A stretch of 64,000 nucleotides of DNA from Candidatus Woesearchaeota archaeon (GTDB lineage Archaea > Nanobdellota > Nanobdellia > Woesearchaeales > GW2011-AR15), in assembly GCA_016928835.1 (NCBI GenBank), contig JAFGJW010000006.1, positions 62,001 to 126,000 of the forward strand. The letters run 5' to 3'. The position numbers were made by a program, and so were the translations under genes. Every line of letters begins with the position of its first letter. The first letter of the stretch is position 1. The notes beneath the pieces are model-generated. The model saw nothing but the letters and a program-made list of their open reading frames with translations. It ran no database searches and was not told the origin of the DNA. Of this stretch, positions 18,754 through 36,901 are shown piece by piece.

Positions 18754-20379
18754 TTAATACTCTGGCATCTTATCTTCTGATCCCGGCATCTTTGGCTCTT
18801 CTTTTTTTCCTGAGGCAATAACATCATCTATGCGAAGAATCATTGTAGCAACTTCTGATGCCGAGCTTACTGCCTGGGTCTTGATTTTTAGAGGCTCAAT
18901 CACCCCATGTTGCCAGGCATCCATCACTTTGCCCGTAAATACATCTATTCCAGCCCATTTCTTGTTTTTATCATGAGCTGATTTTAATTCAGTGAGAACA
19001 TTAATAGGATCAAGACCTGCATTCTCAGCAAGTGTCCTTGGTATAATCTCCATTGCATCTGCGAATGCATTCAGTGCCAATTGTTCTCTTCCAGAGAGCG
19101 ACTCTGCATAGTGCCTAATATTTCTTGCCAGCTCTATTTCTGGCGCTCCTGCTCCAGCAACAACCTTACCAAGCGTTAAAGCAGATATAACAACACCAAT
19201 TGCATCCTCCATTGCTCTCTCTACCTCATCAATAACGTGCTCAGTGCCTCCTCGTACCAAGATTGTTACTGCTTTTGCATTTTTACAATCCTTTACAAAA
19301 GTCATGTCCTCCTCTCCAACTCTCTGTTCTTCCACAACTCCTGCCTTTCCCAAGTCAGAGGAAGTCAAATCATCAATATTTGTAATAATCCTACCAGTAG
19401 TAGCCTTCGCAAGTTTTTCCATGTCAGATTTTTTAACTCGTCTTATTGCATATATCCCGCGCTTTGCCATGAAATGCTGCGCAAGATCATCAATACCCTT
19501 TTGACAAATTACAACATTTGCACCAATAGCTTCAATTGTATCCACCATTTTTTTAATCATCTTCTCTTCCATATCGAGAAATGCCTGCATCTGGGTTGGA
19601 TCTGTTATCTGGATTTTTGCATCTGTTTCTGTGCTTTTGACTTCAAGCGCAGTGTCAATAAGGGCAATCTTAGCATTTTTCACTATCTTCGGCATTCCTG
19701 CATGAACTCTCTCTTTGTCCAATACAATGCCTTCAACAAGTTCAGTTTGCTCAACACTGGCCCCCACTTTTTTCTCAAGCTTGATATCCTCCTTATCAAT
19801 GGTTATTTTACTGTTGCTTATTTCCATAACCTGCATTACTGCCTTAACAGTCATTTCTCCCAATTTTTCTTTTGCTGACTCTGCTCCTTTTCCGGTCATT
19901 GAAGTCATGGCAATCTTTTTTAATATCCCAATGTCATCAGGCGATATTGGTTCAGCAATCTTATTAAGAACAATCTGGGCTTTTTCAGCAGCCATTCGAT
20001 ATCCCTTGACAATAACAGTAGGATGTATTTCCATTTCCAATAAATCTTCTGCTTTTTTAAGCAATTCTCCAGCAAGCACAACCGCAGTTGTGGTGCCGTC
20101 TCCAACTTCATCCTCCTGTGTTTTTGCAATCTCAACAATCATCTTTGCAGCAGGATGCTCTATACTCATCTCCTCAAGTATTGTTACACCATCATTTGTA
20201 ACAACAACCTCTCCGAGGGAATCTACAAGCATCTTATCCATGCCTTTTGGCCCCAAAGTAGTGCGCACTGTTTCAGCCACCAGTTTAGCTGCCATGATAT
20301 TGTTTCTCTGGGCTGTCCTGCCCGAGCTCCTTTGCGTTCCCTCTGGTAAAATAAATATTGGTTGAACTTCTCTTGCCAT
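18754..20379 (-). CDS. thsA: Thermosome subunit (group II chaperonin)
   Basis: The 541-aa product aligns over its full length with archaeal group II chaperonins. It has the N-terminal nucleotide site ([11 protein letters not shown], about 39-49), the catalytic [10 protein letters not shown] segment (about 92-101) and the C-terminal equatorial signature with [10 protein letters not shown]. It forms an ATP-driven double ring that folds cytosolic proteins. The tail ends [13 protein letters not shown], not a GGM repeat. ATG 20379 follows GGGGTGGAT and is preferred to the GTG nine bases upstream. A proximal promoter lies near 20440; a second, repeat-associated promoter lies near 20590. The gene symbol is generic. 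Confidence 0.95.
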
Positions 20380-20432
20380 TGTATCCACCCCTCAGTATTA
20401 AGGTAATTTTGTCATCTGATGGGAATAATGAC

Positions 20433-20585: not shown

Positions 20586-20668
20586 TTTAAATAGCTCACG
20601 CGAGAATGTCCAGTGAAACAAAGTTGAACTAGGCTAGGAAATTCCCTTATTTTGTGCTGTCCAGTGAA
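20586..20668 (-). promoter_or_regulatory. Repeated promoter-upstream element, copy A
   Basis: On the minus strand two identical boxes TTCACTGGACA (20658-20668 and 20607-20617) are 51 bases apart. The proximal one is followed after 13 bases (containing TCGCGTGAG) by a TATA-like TATTTAAA. Copy B at 36132-36214 has the same boxes, the same 51-base spacing and nearly the same sequence between them. Copy C at 36870-36901 has one box at the same distance from its TATA. Downstream are a hairpin block and the thermosome gene. Likely a two-site operator, though a mobile repeat is possible. Confidence 0.55.
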
Positions 20669-20684
20669 TAAAAAAAAGATAACC

Positions 20685-26544: not shown

Positions 26545-28245
26545 CTACAACTTTCTTTTAAACATTTTCTCTAATTGCGAGAAACCGAGTTTTATTATTA
26601 CAGGCCGACCGTGCGGACATGTAAAAGGGATGTTCCTGTTATCTAATTCCTGCATATAACGCCGAATCTCATTCAAGTTGACTGTGTCTCCTGCTTTGAC
26701 TGCTGCTCTGCAAGCCATTTTAATTATCTTTTCTTCCTTAAGCTCATCAAGCTTTATTTTTTTAGAATCAAGGTTGTGAATCAGCTCGAGTATTATCTCT
26801 TTATCTATGTGCATTCCAAAAACACTTGGAATGGTCCTAACAATAAAGCTATTCTTGCCAAATTCCTCAACTTGAAATCCTAGCTCTTTGAAAAAATCCA
26901 GGTTATTAGCAAGAACTATTGCTTGTTTTGGATTTAATTCTAATAGCAAAGGCTCTAGAAGTGTTTGTAATGAGACTTGTTTATTATTATACTGTTCCAT
27001 GAATTTTTCATATAGAATCCTTTCAGCAGCAGCATGCTGGTCTATGATAAGCAATTCATTCTTTGTCTCTGCAATGATATATGTTTTGTTGACAACGCCA
27101 TGCACAATCATGTCTGGTAATTTCTCCAGTTCAACATATTTGTTTATCTCTGTCAATGGTTTTTGCTTGCTTGTATCTAAATATCTTGCTTGTGTTTCTT
27201 TTAGTATTAATGGTTTTTCAACATGCTTTTTGGCAAGCTCTCTCTCTGGAATCAGGTTAGTTTTAGTCAATGCATTTTTAACAGCATTGAAAACTATTTG
27301 GTACATCAGATTTGGTTTCTCCAATCTAATTTCCGCTTTTGTTGGGTGGACGTTAACATCTATAGTAGAGGGATCAACTGTAATGTTAAGAACAGCAAGA
27401 GGATATTTGTGTTTCATTAATAAAGTGCGATAAGCATCATTTAAAGCATCTGCTATTATTTTATCTCTCACATATCTCTTGTTTACATAAATTGACTGCT
27501 CTGTTCTGTACCCTCTGGCAATTTCAGGTCTGGATATGAAGCCTGATATTTCAATCCCTGACTCAAAGTGATTGATCTCCAGCAGCAACTTGGCAACTTT
27601 TCTTCCGTAAATATGAGAGAGATTTGTCAACATATCTAAAGTGTGGGGGCAGTTAAGAATCTCATTATCATTGTGAATTAATTTAACATGAACCTCAGGA
27701 TTAATTAAAGCATACCTCTGCACAATATCAGTTATTTGAGAGAGCTCCTGCTTAATTGATTTGAGGTATTTTTTTCTTGCAGGTGTGTTGAAAAATAGAT
27801 GCCTCACAATTATAATTGTCCCGTTTGGGCAACCTGCTTCTTTTATAGATATTATTTTGCCTGCCCTTACCTTAACTTCTGTTCCATGTAATGCTTGCTC
27901 TTGTTTTGTTATCAAAGTCAGCTCAGAAACAGCTGCTATGCTTGCAAGTGCCTCCCCTCTAAAGCCAAGCGTGTTTATTGCAAACAAATCATTTACACTT
28001 TTAATCTTGCTTGTAGAATGCCTTAAACAGGCTAGTTTTGCGTTATTTTCATCCATACCATACCCATTGTCGCTTACTTTGATGTAAGATTTTCCGCCTT
28101 CTTTTATCTCAATAAATATTTGTACAGCTCCAGCGTCAATTGAATTCTCAATCAATTCTTTAACAATAGAAGCAGGCCTTTCAATTACTTCTCCACCAGC
28201 TATCTTGTTTATTATGGACTCCTCTAGGATGATAATGTTTTTCAT
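26545..28245 (-). CDS. mutL: DNA mismatch repair protein MutL
   Basis: The 566-aa protein has the GHKL ATPase motifs of MutL: KELIENSIDAG (about 29-39), DNGYGM (about 59-64) and GFRGEALASI (about 94-103). The C-terminal domain carries DQHAAAERILYE, the metal-binding endonuclease motif of nicking MutL proteins, plus ACRAAVKAGD and CPHGRP. It should therefore nick DNA during mismatch repair with MutS. It overlaps the upstream TIM-barrel gene by four bases; mutS is two genes upstream. Full MutS/MutL sets are uncommon in archaea, which points to old transfer from bacteria. Confidence 0.95.
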   Translation of the reverse strand: MKNIIILEESIINKIAGGEVIERPASIVKELIENSIDAGAVQIFIEIKEGGKSYIKVSDNGYGMDENNAKLACLRHSTSKIKSVNDLFAINTLGFRGEALASIAAVSELTLITKQEQALHGTEVKVRAGKIISIKEAGCPNGTIIIVRHLFFNTPARKKYLKSIKQELSQITDIVQRYALINPEVHVKLIHNDNEILNCPHTLDMLTNLSHIYGRKVAKLLLEINHFESGIEISGFISRPEIARGYRTEQSIYVNKRYVRDKIIADALNDAYRTLLMKHKYPLAVLNITVDPSTIDVNVHPTKAEIRLEKPNLMYQIVFNAVKNALTKTNLIPERELAKKHVEKPLILKETQARYLDTSKQKPLTEINKYVELEKLPDMIVHGVVNKTYIIAETKNELLIIDQHAAAERILYEKFMEQYNNKQVSLQTLLEPLLLELNPKQAIVLANNLDFFKELGFQVEEFGKNSFIVRTIPSVFGMHIDKEIILELIHNLDSKKIKLDELKEEKIIKMACRAAVKAGDTVNLNEIRRYMQELDNRNIPFTCPHGRPVIIKLGFSQLEKMFKRKL

Positions 28246-29060
28246 TTTATGTTCTCTAATTTTTTAAGACTTTTTTCTACACCTGCTTCTGAACCAAGCT
28301 CTATAATAATATTTCCTTTATAATTCATCTCCTTAAGTCTTTTAAACAAATTAACATAATCTAAATCGCCGTCTCCAATAGGAAGATGCATGTCTGGTTT
28401 ATTTATCAGATCATCAACAAGATGAATATGCTTAATCTTATCCCCAAAATGGTCTAAGAATTTTACTGGATCAATATTGTTAGTAATAGCATGACCTGTA
28501 TCTAAACAGATATAAGTGCCACACTCAACTGCTAATTCCATCTCCTCAGGTGTATGGAACATAGTATCATTTATTGGAAGATTCTCAGCACAAAACTCCA
28601 TATTATATTTTTTTGAATAATCAACCAATTGTCTTAATGACTCTCTTACATTTCTCAAAATTTCTTTGGGGAGGAGAGAATGCGCGGAGCTAAACCAACC
28701 GGTATGGATAACAAGTCTTTTGATATCGAGAAAAACACATAAATCTATATCCTCCTTAAAGTCTTTGAGTGAGATAGTTCTAAGTTTGTCGGAAAATGCA
28801 GCTAAGTTGTACTCAATAAAAGGGAGGTGGTAAGTACAATTCACTCCTCGGATTAATTTTTTTATCTCCCCCTTATAAGCTAAATTACTAATAATTGGCT
28901 TGAGAGAAAGAATTTCAAAGCAGTCAAGATTGTATTTTTTTTTTATTTCCAATGTTTTCTTAAAAACGTCTAAGAATTGATTCTTATAATAGGACAGGGG
29001 TTTTTCTTTGTGTTTTAACATTTCTGAAAACATCAACATTGTTGAAACTCCGAATTTCAT
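28242..29060 (-). CDS. TIM-barrel endonuclease IV/sugar-isomerase fold protein in the mutS-mutL operon
   Basis: The 272-aa protein has the AP_endonuc_2 (xylose-isomerase-like) fold: an HTGWF segment near 115, EFCAENLP near 155, CLDTGHAI near 183, HIHLVDD near 213 and IIELGSE at the end. His, Asp and Glu at these positions would bind metal ions. It could be a sugar-phosphate isomerase/epimerase or an AP-site endonuclease; the sequence alone does not decide. The ATG follows AGGTGATGA and lies nine bases after mutS and four bases into mutL, so a repair role is attractive. Confidence 0.7.
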   Translation of the reverse strand: MKFGVSTMLMFSEMLKHKEKPLSYYKNQFLDVFKKTLEIKKKYNLDCFEILSLKPIISNLAYKGEIKKLIRGVNCTYHLPFIEYNLAAFSDKLRTISLKDFKEDIDLCVFLDIKRLVIHTGWFSSAHSLLPKEILRNVRESLRQLVDYSKKYNMEFCAENLPINDTMFHTPEEMELAVECGTYICLDTGHAITNNIDPVKFLDHFGDKIKHIHLVDDLINKPDMHLPIGDGDLDYVNLFKRLKEMNYKGNIIIELGSEAGVEKSLKKLENIK

Positions 29061-29068
29061 TTCATCAC

Positions 29069-31567
29069 CTACATTTCAGTTAACTTTGCTTGTTTAGATT
29101 TTTTTAAAACATATTCTTCTTTGTCTTCTTTAACTTCTTGCTTTTTGGTCTCTACAACAATCTTTTCTGAAATCTCATCTTCATTTTCCAATTTAAATTG
29201 AAGCTCTCTGCTTCTTTTGATTACATCATTTGGCATGCCTGCAAGTTTTGCAACATGGATGCCATAGCTTTTATCTGTGCCTCCTGGAATAATTTTTCTT
29301 AAAAAAACAATTTCATTATCTTTTTCTTTGACAGCAATATTGTAGTTTCTCACTCCTTTTGTCTCTTTTTCTAGTTGGTTAAGTATATGGTAATGGGTGG
29401 CAAATAATGCCTTTGATTTCAGGTTTTTAGCGATATATTCAGCCACTGCCCAGGCAATACTTACTCCATCATAAGTAGAGGTTCCTCTTCCCAGTTCATC
29501 TAAAATAACCAATGATTTTTCAGTTGCATTGTTTAATATATTGGCTGTTTGTGTCATCTCTACCATAAATGTACTTTGCCCACGGTATATATCGTCAAAT
29601 GCGCCCACTCGCGTAAATATCCTATCAACCACACTAATACTTGCCTTTGTCGCAGGAACAAAGCTTCCAGCTTGTGCCATCAAAACAATCAATGCAACTT
29701 GCCGCTGATATGTTGATTTGCCTGACATATTTGGTCCTGTTATAATCATCATCCGATTTTCTTTTGTAAGCATAATGTCATTTGGTACAAAAGGGAGGGT
29801 CTGTTCTACAACCGGATGTCTTCCTTCAATTATCTCGATATCGAAGTCATCTTTTATTTCAGGTTTTACATACTTATTTTTTACAGCTGCTTCTGCAAAA
29901 GAGCATAGAACATCTATGTAAGCTGTACTATAGGCAGTCTTCTGGATTTCCTTTGTATATTTGCTTATCTCTTGAATGATCTCATTGAAAAGTTTTTGCT
30001 CCAGTGCATTTATTTTCTCTTCTGCACCTAAAATTAGTGATTCTTTTTCTTTTAGCTCCTGTGTTATAAAGCGTTCAGAATTAACCAAGGTCTGTTTTTT
30101 TGTATAGTGCTCAGGAACATATTGAAGATTTGGTTTTGTAACCTCAATATAATAACCAAAAACCTTATTAAATCCTATCTTCAATGATTTGATTCCTGTT
30201 TTTACTTTTTCTGTTCTCTCTAATTCTTTAATAAAATATTTTGCATTCTTGCTGGTTTGCTTTAATTCATCTAACTCTTTGTTAAATCCCCTTTTAATTA
30301 TATTCCCTTCTGTTATTGTTACAGGAGGCTCTTCTGTAATTGATTTGTCAATTAATTCTACTGCATTTTTTAATTCTTTAACCTGGCTTAACTTAGTCAA
30401 TAAAGATGTATTTGCTGTTTCAAGCAGTTTTTTTATCTCTGGCACCAGATTCAATGAATTTTTTAAAGCAATTAAATCACGAGGGTTTGCATTTCCGTAG
30501 TTGATTCTTGAAATAATCCTCTCAATATCAGCTATTTTTGCCAACTGGTCCCTTAAATCTCCTCTTGTAAAAGATTTGTTAAATAGTTCTTCAACAGCAC
30601 TTAGTCTTTCTTTTATCTTATCCACATTTTTCAAAGGTCTTTGGAGTATTTGCTTGATTCTTCTTGCTCCCATAGGTGTAACAGTCCTGTCCAATATACC
30701 TAGCAAGGTTCCATTTGGAGTATTATCTATGATATTTTTTACTAGTTCCAAGTTTTTAATAGAAATGTTGTCAAGAACCATATATTGTGATATATCATAA
30801 GACCTAAGTTTGTTAATGTGCTCCAGAGAGGTTTTTTGTGTTTCATATACATAATTAAGCAATGCACCGCTTGAAGAAGTGCTTAATTGCATTAATCCAA
30901 AACCTTCAAGAGTCAAAACATTAAAATGTTTTTTTAGTGCAGATTCAGCTGTGTTTATATAAAAATTTATATCAGGAAAGAAGTTAAGGAAGATTCCTGT
31001 TTCACTCAGTTTCTTAATAAGATCATTTTCTTTGAAAGATTCAGGCAGAAGAATTTCAGCAGGACTGTATTTTGATGTTTCGCTTAAAACATCATCAAAG
31101 TTGCTTAGTTGTGATGTAATAAACTCGCCTGTCGAGATATCTAAGAATGAAATTCCATATCCATTTTGTGACATAGCCAAAGACATAATAAAATTATTAT
31201 TTTTACCCAGCATATTGTGCTCCACCACTGTTCCTGGCGTAACAATCCTAATAACTCCTCTTTTAACAACACCTTTTGCCAGCTTTGGGTCTTCTAATTG
31301 CTCGACAATAGCAACTTTATAGCCTGCTTTAACCATCTTGCTCAAATATGAATCGAGAGCATGATAGGGTATACCCGCAAGTGGAATCTTTTGCTGCGTG
31401 TTTTTAATGCCTCTTTTTGTAAGCACGATGTCTAGTGTTTTTGAAGTAATTTTTGCATCATCAAAAAAAGTCTCATAGAAATCTCCCATCCTAAAAAAGA
31501 TAATGCAGTCTGGATACTTGCTTTTTATATCCATATACTGCTGCATAGCTGGCGTGAGTTTAGCCAT
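29069..31567 (-). CDS. mutS: DNA mismatch repair protein MutS
   Basis: The 832-aa protein is a full-length bacterial-type MutS1. The mismatch-reading motif is present (FFRMGDFYETFFDDA, about 27-41), followed by connector, lever and clamp domains, then the ATPase with GPNMSGKSTYQRQ (Walker A) and VILDELGRGTSTYDG (Walker B). It recognises mismatches and recruits MutL, encoded two genes downstream. I use ATG 31567 (MAKLTP) after a GGGGG ribosome-like site; the track adds 11 residues. Transcribed divergently from the PHP gene. Confidence 0.95.
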   Translation of the reverse strand: MAKLTPAMQQYMDIKSKYPDCIIFFRMGDFYETFFDDAKITSKTLDIVLTKRGIKNTQQKIPLAGIPYHALDSYLSKMVKAGYKVAIVEQLEDPKLAKGVVKRGVIRIVTPGTVVEHNMLGKNNNFIMSLAMSQNGYGISFLDISTGEFITSQLSNFDDVLSETSKYSPAEILLPESFKENDLIKKLSETGIFLNFFPDINFYINTAESALKKHFNVLTLEGFGLMQLSTSSSGALLNYVYETQKTSLEHINKLRSYDISQYMVLDNISIKNLELVKNIIDNTPNGTLLGILDRTVTPMGARRIKQILQRPLKNVDKIKERLSAVEELFNKSFTRGDLRDQLAKIADIERIISRINYGNANPRDLIALKNSLNLVPEIKKLLETANTSLLTKLSQVKELKNAVELIDKSITEEPPVTITEGNIIKRGFNKELDELKQTSKNAKYFIKELERTEKVKTGIKSLKIGFNKVFGYYIEVTKPNLQYVPEHYTKKQTLVNSERFITQELKEKESLILGAEEKINALEQKLFNEIIQEISKYTKEIQKTAYSTAYIDVLCSFAEAAVKNKYVKPEIKDDFDIEIIEGRHPVVEQTLPFVPNDIMLTKENRMMIITGPNMSGKSTYQRQVALIVLMAQAGSFVPATKASISVVDRIFTRVGAFDDIYRGQSTFMVEMTQTANILNNATEKSLVILDELGRGTSTYDGVSIAWAVAEYIAKNLKSKALFATHYHILNQLEKETKGVRNYNIAVKEKDNEIVFLRKIIPGGTDKSYGIHVAKLAGMPNDVIKRSRELQFKLENEDEISEKIVVETKKQEVKEDKEEYVLKKSKQAKLTEM

Positions 31568-31666
31568 ATATAAAACCCCCGATTGTAAGAATAAGCTCAT
31601 AATTTAAAAAAGTGATGGTGAAGACAGAGAAAAGATTATAATATTAACAATAATCTTTGTGTTAAT

Positions 31667-32962: not shown

Positions 32963-33643
32963 ATGTGCGGAAGATTCTCGCTAGCTGCAGTGGGGCCGAC
33001 ATTGGCCGATTTTTTTAATATCAGAGTAGATGAAACTCTGAAACCGAGGTATAATATCGCACCTACACAACAAGCGCCAGTAATTACCGGAGACAAAGCA
33101 GAAGAATTAATAATGATGAGGTGGGGGCTAATACCTGGCTGGGCCAAAGAAATCGAGACAAAGTATAGTATGATTAATGCAAGGGCTGAGACTTTAACCA
33201 GCAGACCTGCTTACAAAAAACCATTCCAAAGTCAGCGCTGCCTTGTACCTGCAGATGGTTTTTATGAATGGAGAAAAACTCCTACTGCGAAGATACCTTA
33301 CAGAATTACTTTAAGGGATAATGGATTGTTCGCTTTTGCAGGGATATTTGACATTTGGAAAGATGAAGAAGGCAGGGAAATAAAGTCATTTACAATCATA
33401 ACTGTACCGCCAAACAGCTTAGTTAGGGAACTGCATAACAGGATGCCAGCTATTTTAAGAAGAGAGCATGAAAAATTATGGTTGCACAGCACAGCAGCGG
33501 AAAAATTAATTGAGATAGCACTAAAACCGTATCCTTCTGAAAAGATGAAGGCCTACCAAATCTCTCCACTAGTGAACTCTCCCAGCAATGACTCTTTTGA
33601 AATTATCAAGCCTGCAGAGACAAAGACATTATTTGATTATTAA
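32963..33643 (+). CDS. SRAP-domain protein (YedK/HMCES family, abasic-site sensor)
   Basis: Starting at ATG 32963 gives MCGRFSL, placing the catalytic cysteine at position 2 as required in this family; the longer track ORF would bury it. Other conserved elements are RYNIAPTQ (about 30-37), MRWGLIPGWA, INARAET, FYEWRK (catalytic Glu) and LHNRMPAIL (catalytic His). The family forms a stable crosslink to abasic sites in single-stranded DNA and protects replication forks. A TATA-like TTTATATT about 25 bases upstream suggests a leaderless message. Its 3' end overlaps the convergent PolB gene by 38 bases. Confidence 0.92.
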   Translation: MCGRFSLAAVGPTLADFFNIRVDETLKPRYNIAPTQQAPVITGDKAEELIMMRWGLIPGWAKEIETKYSMINARAETLTSRPAYKKPFQSQRCLVPADGFYEWRKTPTAKIPYRITLRDNGLFAFAGIFDIWKDEEGREIKSFTIITVPPNSLVRELHNRMPAILRREHEKLWLHSTAAEKLIEIALKPYPSEKMKAYQISPLVNSPSNDSFEIIKPAETKTLFDY

Positions 33644-35765
33644 TCTTATCAGGTTTCTCCAAGTACTCATGTAATTTACTCTGTTTTTCATAATCCGCTA
33701 ATTCATTTATTTCTTTCCTTGTAAATCCAAATGGCTGCAGGACAACAAATAATGCTCTAACCAATAGTTTTTTATAATGTTCGATATCAGGCTTGCCGCG
33801 ATAATCTTCTGGCAGAACAATACCCTTTTCTGAATAGATAAAATACATTTTTTGACCTGGCTGCATAGAAACATTTTTCCTGTTAAGCAAATCCAATACA
33901 ATTTTTTGAGGCACATCATTTTTGTAGTCTGTCTTGCTTATTACAATTGAGGAGGATAACATTCCTGCTTCTTGCATTGGGAGCATGAATATTGTTTTTC
34001 TTAGCAACTGGCATAGGTACGGAAACATTTCTATTATCTCTTTTTTTGTGTTGCATTGGCCGATTAATCTAAGAACCTCCATTTGGAATTGCTTTACTAT
34101 CTTAGGGGCGCCTCTCTGCCTTGCCTCTAACCCTCTCACTTTTATATCTCCGTTCAGGAAAACACCATAGTAATGGGTTGGGATTGGTCTGTGGTAATCG
34201 TTTATACTTGGCAGGAAAACAATCCATCTGTAAATCCCCTCAAATGAAACAGGAATCCCTGTTTCAAGCTCAATGGCTCTGCATATCTCCCTAACTTCTA
34301 TCTCATTTATGTCTTTTTTTTTGATGTAAAGTGAATCGACTATTCCGTGCACTATTTTGAATCCCTCTTCTTCACAAATCATTTTTGCCTTTATCATTAT
34401 CTCCCTGGCAAACGCGCCTATGGTCATATGGCTTGTTGCTATCCCAAGCTTAAACTCTCTGAAGCGCAGATAGCCATAGGAAGTAACTAAAACCCACTTT
34501 AGACCAACTGACTTGGCCTTGTTCAAAGAAGTTGGATTTGCCTTGTAGTGCATTCTCCTATCAAGAAAAGGCTTTATTGCTATTGGCACAATTCCCTTTC
34601 TCCTCAAAGAAATCTTCAGCGGAAGACCAGGAACTTTCTGGTAAGGCGGTTCACCTCCTTGAATATTCTCTGTACTTATATTATAGTTGTATATAATCCA
34701 AGGAAATAATGAACTAAAATCTATTTCAGCAACATCATGATGTAGCCCGGTTATTGAGTCAAAGGTATGGCCGACCCTATCAAATTTCAATAAAGTATAG
34801 AGTGTCACAGGCTGATCAACTGGCTTTTCTTTAAAAGGCACAAGACAATCTCTCCTAACCATTTCACGTATCAAAGCAGATTGGAAAACAGCACCGAAAC
34901 TTCTTGAGGCGACCTGCTGGAATCTTGTTCCAGAAATAGAAGAAAGTTCGGTAATTGCCTTTAAACAGCATTCAGAGCCAACCATTGTCCCGCTGTCTAT
35001 TAAGAACCGTCCCTTTAGCCTTATTGCATACTCACGATGGACAACCCTACCATAGCTAAAGAAAGATTTGCTCCCTTTGGATTCTATCTTTGTATAGTCC
35101 CACCTGTGAAAAGGACATTTGAGTCTATAAGCTTCAAGTCTTCTGACAAGATAAGGAAGCTTTGCAAATGCGTTCTCCATTAGGATAATATCAGGGTCCT
35201 CAGATATGAAGAGTTCTGTGAACCTTTTTAGGATAGTTTCCTCACTGCCGGTTATTTCTTTACCATTGGTAAGAATAGTTTCCACAGCTGCGTTTTTATC
35301 AGCTCTTATATCTCTTGAAGGAATAATCTCTATATCCATCTTGTCCATTAGAACAGCAGCTTCTTGGTCTAAAGAGAGTATTTTATTATTATAGACTTCT
35401 ACATAAAAAAAAGGTTTTAAATTACTCTTGTAAAGGAACATCTGTTCAGGAGGTATGTCTGCGTCATATAGGTTTATTCTATGCCTGGCTTCTCTTTCAA
35501 TTCTCCTAACAATTCTCTCAAAACAGCTTATTTTTTTAATTGCTATTTCATAAACTTTCTTTATTTCTCCTTTGTAAGTCTTTTTTTCAACAATTCTGTT
35601 GGGGACATTATATTTTCTTAAGATAGACTCGGCAAGTTCACAGCATTCCAGGTAAAGATAATGCCTAAAATTTTTCTCTATCCTTATATTGCTATTGCCT
35701 AGTGTTTTTAACCACAAGATTATTTTGTTTCCATGCCTGTATGAGTCAATCAGTATTGCCTTCAT
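33606..35765 (-). CDS. Divergent family B DNA polymerase (PolB2-like)
   Basis: The 719-aa protein has a polB fold with altered motifs. Motif A is EIDFSSLFPW (Asp kept), motif B is KWVLVTSYGY, and motif C is GIVDSLYI, not YGDTDS, so the first of its two aspartates is lost. The exonuclease domain is recognisable (AFAKLPYLVRRLEAY) but its acidic residues are mostly gone, so proofreading is probably absent. This fits the archaeal PolB2/Dpo2 clade, linked in crenarchaea to error-prone damage tolerance. The start overlaps the 80-aa gene by 20 bases. Whether it is catalytic is open. Confidence 0.82.
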   Translation of the reverse strand: MKAILIDSYRHGNKIILWLKTLGNSNIRIEKNFRHYLYLECCELAESILRKYNVPNRIVEKKTYKGEIKKVYEIAIKKISCFERIVRRIEREARHRINLYDADIPPEQMFLYKSNLKPFFYVEVYNNKILSLDQEAAVLMDKMDIEIIPSRDIRADKNAAVETILTNGKEITGSEETILKRFTELFISEDPDIILMENAFAKLPYLVRRLEAYRLKCPFHRWDYTKIESKGSKSFFSYGRVVHREYAIRLKGRFLIDSGTMVGSECCLKAITELSSISGTRFQQVASRSFGAVFQSALIREMVRRDCLVPFKEKPVDQPVTLYTLLKFDRVGHTFDSITGLHHDVAEIDFSSLFPWIIYNYNISTENIQGGEPPYQKVPGLPLKISLRRKGIVPIAIKPFLDRRMHYKANPTSLNKAKSVGLKWVLVTSYGYLRFREFKLGIATSHMTIGAFAREIMIKAKMICEEEGFKIVHGIVDSLYIKKKDINEIEVREICRAIELETGIPVSFEGIYRWIVFLPSINDYHRPIPTHYYGVFLNGDIKVRGLEARQRGAPKIVKQFQMEVLRLIGQCNTKKEIIEMFPYLCQLLRKTIFMLPMQEAGMLSSSIVISKTDYKNDVPQKIVLDLLNRKNVSMQPGQKMYFIYSEKGIVLPEDYRGKPDIEHYKKLLVRALFVVLQPFGFTRKEINELADYEKQSKLHEYLEKPDKINNQIMSLSLQA

Positions 35766-35988
35766 TTTTCATTAATTCTTTCTCATGCTCCAGCAGGATT
35801 GAGAATAAAATCAATGCCCATGTATTATAGGAGCAGGCGAAACTTATGCTGCTTATATGCCTCTTTACTTTTGCCAAGAGTGTTGTAAATGCATCCTTCT
35901 CATCTTCCCTCAATGATTTCCCGTAATCCATTAATTCCTGTAGGATTGTGTCCACAACAATTCTCTGGCTTGATACTGTGTGTCCCAT
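35746..35988 (-). CDS. Small conserved partner of PolB2
   Basis: The 80-aa helical protein (MGHTVSSQR start, SISFACSYNTWALILFSILL later) lies directly upstream of the polymerase and overlaps it, so the two are co-translated. From memory, small proteins with an MGHT start accompany some archaeal polB2 genes, but I cannot confirm that here. It could be a polymerase accessory subunit. Its promoter is probably copy B of the repeated element, which would leave a leader of about 120 bases with strong hairpins. Confidence 0.5.
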   Translation of the reverse strand: MGHTVSSQRIVVDTILQELMDYGKSLREDEKDAFTTLLAKVKRHISSISFACSYNTWALILFSILLEHEKELMKNEGNTD

Positions 35989-36024
35989 TTTGACTTATGC
36001 TAGTTTAATAAAATATTTCAGAAA

Positions 36025-36086
36025 GGGGACTCTGTCCCCCTTCGACCCCCTGAAGCGAGGGAGTTCAAGAGGGGTATCCCCTCTTG
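36025..36086. repeat. G/C-rich hairpin block (family copy 3)
   Basis: Two hairpins: GGGGAC-TCT-GTCCCC (36025-36039) and a perfect nine-base stem CAAGAGGGG-TAT-CCCCTCTTG (36066-36086), within an A/T-rich gap and flanked by AATATTT on both sides. It lies between repeated element copy B and the PolB2 operon, just as copy 1 lies between element copy A and the thermosome. The blocks may be leader structures or debris of a mobile repeat. Confidence 0.5.
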
Positions 36087-36131
36087 TGAAATATTAAAAA
36101 ATTAAAGTACAAAATTTAAAATTTATTTGAG

Positions 36132-36214
36132 TTTATATACCTCACACGGGAATGTCTAGTGAAACAAAGTTGGACTGGGCTAGGAAATTCCCTTAATTTC
36201 CGCTGTCCAGTGAA
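36132..36214 (-). promoter_or_regulatory. Repeated promoter-upstream element, copy B
   Basis: On the minus strand: TTCACTGGACA (36204-36214), then 51 bases on TTCACTAGACA (36153-36163), then 13 bases ending GTGTGAGG and a TATA box TATATAAA. The 40-base interval between the boxes is nearly identical to copy A. The inferred start of transcription near 36109 leads into the 80-aa/PolB2 operon. The spacing equals about five helical turns, as expected for two sites bound on one face of DNA. Confidence 0.55.
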
Positions 36215-36262
36215 AAAATTTAAGTTAGAAAACTTTTTATATTAACAAAAAATAATTTTTTT

Positions 36263-36391
36263 ATGGCATTTGACTTGTTCTCAAATACTATAGAGTCATA
36301 TTTACTAATTGTTGGTTTCGCAGTATTTCTTGTGGTGCTGCTTTATATTGTCTGGCCTAAAATGATCAAGTTGAGATTGTTTAAAAAATAA
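36263..36391 (+). CDS. Small single-span membrane protein
   Basis: This 42-aa frame (MAFDLFSNT start) is too short for the ORF track. It has one hydrophobic helix (about 13-32, with LIVGFAVFLVVLLYIVW) and a basic tail ending RLFKK, so it would sit with its C terminus in the cytoplasm. A TATA-like TTTTTATATTAAC lies about 30 bases before the ATG. It lies between the PolB2 operon and the RecA-fold gene, on the opposite strand. Function unknown. Confidence 0.5.
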   Translation: MAFDLFSNTIESYLLIVGFAVFLVVLLYIVWPKMIKLRLFKK

Positions 36392-36415
36392 CACCAAATA
36401 GTTGAGGAGAATCCT

Positions 36416-36847
36416 CTACACAAATAGGATATCATCAGCAAATTTCTTAGCAAACCTACCATGCATTGAATCTTCTGCTATCCCAACATTAACCTGAATA
36501 TTTTTTGACAATCGCCCCATTATTTCCCAGCAATTCTCTAGAACATTATAATTCTCTAATTCATCATCATATGAAAATAATATATGGATTGTTGTTATAA
36601 CCAGTATTACAAGCCCAAGTTCCTTTGTCCAAGTTGGAGCTTGTTTTAATGCGTCTCTAAACCGATAAATGGCTTCTGCATTTACAACATAGACTCTATG
36701 TAATTGTTCTTCTTTTATAATTGGAAAAAGATTATGCGGGTTAGCTGCATTACCGCAATCCAGTATAAGAGAAGGTGTTTTCTCGAATGATTTTAGTAAT
36801 AGAGTTTGATTCACTTCATCGGGACATCCTCTATAAGCGATTAGCAT
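36416..36847 (-). CDS. Probable inactive RecA/RadB-fold protein
   Basis: The 143-aa protein lacks a Walker A P-loop, but the order of strands (SLILDCGN, RVYVVNAEAIYRF, GLVILVITTIHILFSYDDE, IQVNVGIAED, ADDILFV) resembles the core of RadA/RadB after the P-loop. I therefore suggest a degenerate RecA-fold protein; this is a judgement from pattern, not a confirmed match. Bacterial ImuA, a RecA-like protein without full ATPase activity, serves error-prone polymerases in a similar way. Promoter copy C lies at leaderless distance (TATA centre about 26 bases before ATG 36847). The track's TTG start adds one residue. Confidence 0.45.
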   Translation of the reverse strand: MLIAYRGCPDEVNQTLLLKSFEKTPSLILDCGNAANPHNLFPIIKEEQLHRVYVVNAEAIYRFRDALKQAPTWTKELGLVILVITTIHILFSYDDELENYNVLENCWEIMGRLSKNIQVNVGIAEDSMHGRFAKKFADDILFV

Positions 36848-36869
36848 CAATTAAGAGATTAAATCAACT

Positions 36870-36901
36870 TTTAAATATCCCACGCGAAAATGTCCAGTGA
36901 A
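36870..36901 (-). promoter_or_regulatory. Repeated promoter-upstream element, copy C
   Basis: On the minus strand TTCACTGGACA (36891-36901) is followed by 13 bases (TTTTCGCGTGGGA) and TATTTAAA, then the RecA-fold start codon about 26 bases after the TATA centre. This copy has no distal box, but its distance from box to TATA (21 bases on the plus strand) is identical to copies A and B. Because it fits a working leaderless promoter, it sets the orientation of the whole family. Confidence 0.6.

Follow-up and report, generated by a model that had tools for sequence, protein, structure and literature searches.

A promoter box shared by the PolB2 mutasome genes and radA suggests an SOS-like DNA-damage regulon in the archaeal order Woesearchaeales

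The window analysed here is a stretch of 64,000 nucleotides (nt) from contig JAFGJW010000006.1 of a Candidatus Woesearchaeota archaeon (C8:62001-126000; draft genome of 1.53 Mb in 20 contigs). It carries on the complementary strand the genes of a mutasome, consisting of the polymerase PolB2, its small partner PPB2 and the inactive RadA-like protein iRadA, together with copies of a short promoter box, CACTGGACA. The three open reading frames (ORFs) were found among the window ORFs at the positions given in an earlier note on this DNA, which was made from the sequence without database searches. PolB2, a Dpo2-type B-family polymerase of 719 amino acids (aa) (33606..35765, -), could be identified by a family match, its motifs and its predicted fold. 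The best-fitting NCBI type B polymerase family, NF004416, matched at E=3e-98, which is below the model's own cutoff, and the AlphaFold model (predicted local distance difference test, pLDDT, 87.9) matched archaeal PolB structures, giving a B-family polymerase fold. Named relatives of PolB2 belonged to Nanoarchaeota/Woesearchaeota, with 63% and 49% identity.

The earlier note had described a polymerase that keeps the motif A and second motif C aspartates, reads GIVDS in place of GDTDS and has an eroded exonuclease, and each of these points was borne out. D349 of motif A and D477 of motif C were invariant in 15 homologues, the first DxD aspartate was replaced by Ile in an HGIVDS motif (IVD at 475-477), and Pfam exo1 reached 17.5 bits against a 23-bit cutoff, indicating a decayed exonuclease. 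The D(K/R) motif, conserved in the loop before the palm of published PolB2 proteins (PMC11791011), was present as D329-R330 and invariant in the homologue alignment. The loss of the first DxD aspartate and of the exonuclease residues would suit a catalytically dead PolB2, which was the original reading of the family (PMC4104785), with the complex then having a structural or regulatory role where forks stall. This is very unlikely, given that the two remaining aspartates are invariant and that Sulfolobus islandicus Dpo2, which shares this IID-type motif, takes part in translesion synthesis as an active extender (PMC11791011, PMC8764526). S. islandicus Dpo2 is also damage-inducible and needed for targeted mutagenesis (PMC7390963).

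A VRR-NUC nuclease-like domain was fused at the PolB2 C-terminus in six relatives (L046, L047, L049, L051, L054 and L055), with three of the six above the Pfam cutoff; the window PolB2 does not carry this domain, and no such polymerase-nuclease fusion was found in the open-access literature. With PolB2 as the query, no further B-family polymerase turned up in the window's genome, and G063 and G119, its two family members, yielded not a single one; most of the order has one.

PPB2 (arCOG07300-like, 80 aa; 35746..35988, -) was assigned by homologue alignment and by its adjacency to PolB2, the start of which it overlaps by 20 nt, as the earlier note had reported. Published PPB2 proteins (arCOG07300) are small and helical, have a conserved N-terminal MGRT arm and are encoded beside PolB2 (PMC11791011). 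The window PPB2 begins with MGHTVSSQR and aligned with 16 homologues starting with MGHT or MGRT, the latter in three relatives, with R9 retained.

The third protein, of 143 aa (36416..36847, -; alternative TTG start at 36850), lies 427 bp upstream of the 80-aa ORF. Its AlphaFold model was of high confidence (pLDDT 95.4; predicted template modelling score, pTM, 0.90), and the top 50 PDB matches were all Rad51, RecA, DMC1 or Rad51 paralogues, with a query TM-score of up to 0.83. The P-loop was replaced by GCPDEVN at residues 8-14, and the N-terminal helical domain was missing, with strand 1 beginning at residue 2. The proposal of a RecA fold without a P-loop thus agreed with the structure comparison, which could have returned a different fold. 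No sequence match to Rad51 families could be obtained with phmmer, Pfam or the NCBI families, which would be expected if the protein were an unrelated Rossmann-like protein merely lying near PolB2. That explanation retains hardly any probability and is taken as refuted by the fold comparison, in which the confident model placed only Rad51/RecA proteins at the top, and it also conflicts with the strict co-occurrence with PolB2, the adjacency and the fusion to PPB2 seen in relatives. On the predicted fold and gene context, the 143-aa protein is iRadA, an ATPase-dead Rad51 paralogue.

Among 145 genomes of the order Woesearchaeales, iRadA was present in 15, and PolB2 was present in all 15 of these (Fisher p ~1e-17), which is the co-occurrence that the earlier note had predicted; a diverged PolB2 occurred in three further genomes. 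The PPB2 gene lay beside iRadA in all 15 genomes, mostly in an adjacent operon ordered iRadA-PPB2-PolB2, and in-frame iRadA-PPB2 fusions were present in three relatives (L050, L057 and L061). Across 80 named archaeal and bacterial loci, PPB2 was found beside PolB2 in 65, and the short iRadA profile reached only 11, which is to be expected of a fast-evolving protein whose members in distant groups are too diverged for the profile. The three genes are therefore the already known PolB2-PPB2-iRadA mutasome, here in a Woesearchaeales genome. Makarova et al. (2014) described the PolB2/arCOG07300/inactivated-RadA operon (PMC4104785), and Timinskas et al. (2025) gave the PolB2 mutasome its name and modelled it (PMC11791011) as a heteropentamer of one PolB2, one iRadA and three PPB2. 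The archaeal mutasome of the earlier note thus holds as a three-gene system, supported by fold and co-occurrence, but not as a new proposal; the new part is the promoter element.

In the window's genome the iRadA-PPB2-PolB2 operon is split into two halves, which are preceded by separate promoters bearing the same box. The iRadA promoter carries CACTGGACA at 36891..36899 (-), 52 nt before the ATG, with TATTTAAA at 36870-36877. The PPB2-PolB2 promoter carries two boxes, a proximal one, CACTAGACA, at 36153..36161 (-), with TATATAAA at 36132-36139, and a distal one, CACTGGACA, at 36204..36212 (-), with 51 bp from the one to the other. Together these form a double-box promoter cassette of 96 nt (36132..36227, -), which is 84% identical to a sister double-box cassette (20586..20681, -) upstream of the thermosome gene (18754-20388, -), a member of the same putative regulon. 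The earlier note had placed a common promoter element before both mutasome units, and a 32-nt element could indeed be located three times in the window, at 20586 (thermosome), 36132 (PPB2-PolB2) and 36870 (iRadA). The core CACTRGACA occurred six times in the window against 0.61 expected, a number that none of 100 shuffles reached, and 38 times in the whole genome of the window against four for the reversed motif. One core copy, at 31429 within mutS, lacks a TATA box and probably arose by chance; about 17 other genomic core matches without a TATA box were likewise taken as chance.

The PPB2 leader (35985-36130, -) is predicted to form stacked hairpins (z = -5.9) flanked by AATATTTCA/TGAAATATT, and may be a small palindromic insertion by which the operon was split. 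An Rfam search of the mutasome region gave no match. Between iRadA and PPB2, a 42-aa hydrophobic ORF lies on the opposite strand (36263-36391, +).

Comparison across the order revealed that the box is conserved at equivalent promoters. It was found 51-68 nt before the iRadA start codon in 12 of 14 genomes (p=8e-14), before the radA operon in 23 of 30 relatives (p=3e-20) and before a Cas4/Dna2-like nuclease in 18 of 30 (p=3e-14), each against a background of 187 other ORFs of the same loci, five of which had a box within 300 bp. The reversed motif was absent from all of these upstream regions. The box was also present upstream of two further diverged operons. In 122 promoter sites, which were chosen for a TATA box at 8-18 bp so that the finding is the sharpness within that range, the core started approximately 22-24 bp before the TATA box, or about two helical turns, and a conserved stretch joined the core to the TATA box, CACTGGACAT-YYNCGCGYRAGN-TATTTAAA. 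The box with a TATA box occurred in most genomes of the order, with up to 32 per genome and control counts near zero, and only 0-2 times per genome elsewhere in the class; the box is restricted to the order Woesearchaeales. No earlier description of the box or of a Woesearchaeota damage regulon was found in a search of open-access journal articles.

The genes behind the box were read from pattern matches and genome stretches. Approximately 15 promoters of the window's genome carry the box, and their genes code for RadA with a 92-aa companion, an Orc1/Cdc6 paralogue, the Nre repair protein, the Cas4/Dna2-like nuclease, a YprB-like RNase H, a Xer-type recombinase, PPB2-PolB2, iRadA, the thermosome, a GyrI-like protein, three LAGLIDADG endonucleases and small ORFs. 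Seven relatives, from which an unselected set was taken, added Hef, Hel308, MCM, ribonucleotide reductase, gyrase A, a radical-SAM/HHH protein, PD-(D/E)XK nucleases, DUF763, DNA methylases, a restriction enzyme, BRO, toxin-antitoxin-like genes, another thermosome and more LAGLIDADG genes. This content, with RadA, nucleases, helicases and the mutasome, led us to read the set as a DNA-damage regulon.

Several box-associated genes are noted in their own right. Free-standing LAGLIDADG-type genes stood behind the box in 13 loci (e.g. L096, L104 and L111), which gives the impression of a link between homing endonucleases and the damage response. Near the Orc1 paralogue and Sua5, the box is directly followed by a short ORF (about 30-45 aa) in which a TIxxLFFxQxKxLS-like motif recurs (L373, L375, L222, L257, L270, L286 and others); its product is possibly a damage-induced small protein. 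The 92-aa protein between the box and radA (L106:2926-3204) has no Pfam match, and a similar protein precedes RadA in G134 (L240). The Nre gene behind the box (L103:3799-4993) is read in two frames of 63 and 342 aa around a poly-A run, reflecting either a frameshift or an assembly error.

The presence of MCM, ribonucleotide reductase, gyrase A, the Orc1/Cdc6 paralogue and radA among the box genes could also mark a replication or cell-cycle regulon, or the site of a replication-linked factor, with the mutasome simply expressed in S phase. The error-prone polymerase, Hef, Hel308, Nre and the Cas4/Dna2-like nuclease fit damage or stress better, as do the toxin-antitoxin-like genes, restriction genes and homing endonucleases, and the initiator orc1 region of the window's genome (L372) was not among the box matches; a replication regulon is accordingly judged quite unlikely.

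A related question is the identity of the regulator. The Orc1/Cdc6 paralogue (arORC2-like, 356 aa) may itself bind the box as an ORB-like site, in the manner of Sulfolobus Orc1-2, which regulates the damage response there (PMC9738581); arORC2 genes also neighbour PolB2 operons in Euryarchaeota (PMC4104785). The paralogue stands behind the box in the window's genome and in three of 29 relatives; for about 11 others the box is found one intergenic region further on. The reverse complement of the box, TGTCCAGTG, resembles TTCCAGTGGAAAC, the core of archaeal origin boxes. However, co-distribution fails in G006, G012 and G101 (each of at least 90% completeness), where the paralogue was not found and boxes are still present, in G006 even before radA, and the paralogue was rejected as a proven regulator. 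The box was likewise rejected as the origin box of the window's genome, the origin-like candidate near its initiator gene being TTCCAGAGGAAAAG, and the Sulfolobus site ANTTTC differs from the box. The paralogue is thus a doubtful candidate for the regulator.

It is very probable that the three genes encode a PolB2 mutasome and lie within an order-wide, box-marked regulon that includes radA. The analysis established the gene identities, the iRadA fold, the co-occurrence and the box with its spacing, lineage restriction and gene content, and we infer the physical complex, its polymerase activity, induction by damage, activation and the regulator. At a probability of roughly 0.7, CACTGGACA at its fixed TATA spacing represents an SOS-like DNA-damage regulon of the whole order, which belongs to the DPANN archaea, with an operator of its own. 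Its members would be RadA, the PolB2 mutasome and a large number of genes for recombination, replication and nucleases. Homing endonucleases, restriction-modification and toxin-antitoxin genes would take advantage of the regulon in much the way that bacterial mobile elements exploit control by LexA. The rigid spacing between box and TATA box suggests an activator touching TBP/TFB, and activation is favoured over repression. Upon DNA damage, a regulatory factor would bind CACTGGACA and recruit TBP/TFB at some 5-20 promoters per genome across the order. RadA, nucleases and helicases would repair or remodel forks, and iRadA, the small, putatively helical PPB2 and PolB2 would come together and elongate primer ends that are mispaired or contain lesions, carrying synthesis past lesions at the cost of mutations.

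Several observations weigh against the damage regulon and the mutasome within it. Two of the 14 iRadA promoters lack an exact box, and the genes behind the box include the non-repair genes thermosome, Sua5, GyrI-like and homing endonucleases. The damage induction of the box genes is itself something that we infer from gene content and from orthology with Sulfolobus. A hhalign profile comparison of iRadA with RadA, a kind of check that the earlier note had proposed, was not significant (E=0.3), with the register as expected (IDCGNAANPH vs IDTENTFRPE), so that it is the predicted fold and the gene context that support the relationship. Inspection by eye recognised no clear QxxLxxFF clamp-binding motif in the window PolB2 or iRadA; published mutasomes have such a motif in PolB2 or at the iRadA C-terminus in some cases only (PMC11791011).

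Other repair genes lie nearby. A gene for an SRAP protein (HMCES/YedK-type abasic-site protein; 32963..33643, +; PF02586, E=9e-72; start codon chosen by eye, MCGRF...) stands tail-to-tail with PolB2 and overlaps its 3' end by 38 nt; SRAP is known as an enriched neighbour of polB2 (PMC11791011). A cluster at 26545-31600 beside the mutasome region codes for MutL, an AP-endonuclease-like TIM barrel and MutS.

Most DPANN archaea have not been cultured, and very little is known about how they regulate their genes. If the damage regulon is real, its operator would give a first handle on an SOS-like response in DPANN for a whole order; the PolB2 mutasome would be placed inside that response, and repair genes, including unknown small ones, could be predicted from sequence alone.

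Compared with the PolB2 mutasome of Sulfolobales, Euryarchaeota and bacteria (PMC4104785, PMC11791011), the Woesearchaeales system shares the three protein families and gene order, the lost first DxD aspartate, the D(K/R) motif, the MGxT arm of PPB2, the ATPase-dead RecA fold, the SRAP neighbour and, in relatives, the iRadA-PPB2 fusions. It differs in the two-part operon of the window, in the PPB2 arm (MGHT, not MGRT), in the very short iRadA (143 aa) and in the VRR-NUC domain fused to PolB2 in some relatives; the main text of PMC11791011 makes no mention of DPANN/Woesearchaeota, VRR domains or promoters. The parallel with bacterial ImuA-ImuB-DnaE2, drawn by the earlier note as one of function and not of sequence, is apt on those terms, and Pol V (UmuC-UmuD'-RecA) is, by analogy, the closer published parallel. 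Both bacterial systems likewise combine a damage-response polymerase, a RecA-fold partner and an accessory subunit, but their polymerase and accessory families are unrelated: the window polymerase is of the B family, in contrast to C-family DnaE2 and Y-family-like ImuB or the Y-family polymerase of Pol V, and no LexA box is present here.

Among archaeal damage regulons, the Sulfolobus Orc1-2 regulon (PMC9738581) also includes PolB2/Dpo2 and has an Orc1 paralogue as a member. Its DDRE site is ANTTTC, whereas the conserved core here is CACTGGACA, with ATTTTC present in the iRadA promoter and absent from the PPB2 promoter; moreover, radA is a core member here and the regulator only a candidate. 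In Halobacterium, the UV-B motif TTTCACTTTCA precedes the radA1 TATA box (PMC2556686) and is, as here, a short element immediately in front of the TATA box, at radA and other genes induced by damage. It differs in sequence and covers four genes of one species, in contrast to an order-wide box that also precedes the mutasome; TTTCACT is common to only two or three window sites and is not conserved in relatives. If the reading of CACTGGACA as a damage operator holds, archaeal damage regulons would use lineage-specific operators, ANTTTC in Sulfolobus, TTTCACTTTCA in Halobacterium and CACTGGACA in Woesearchaeales.

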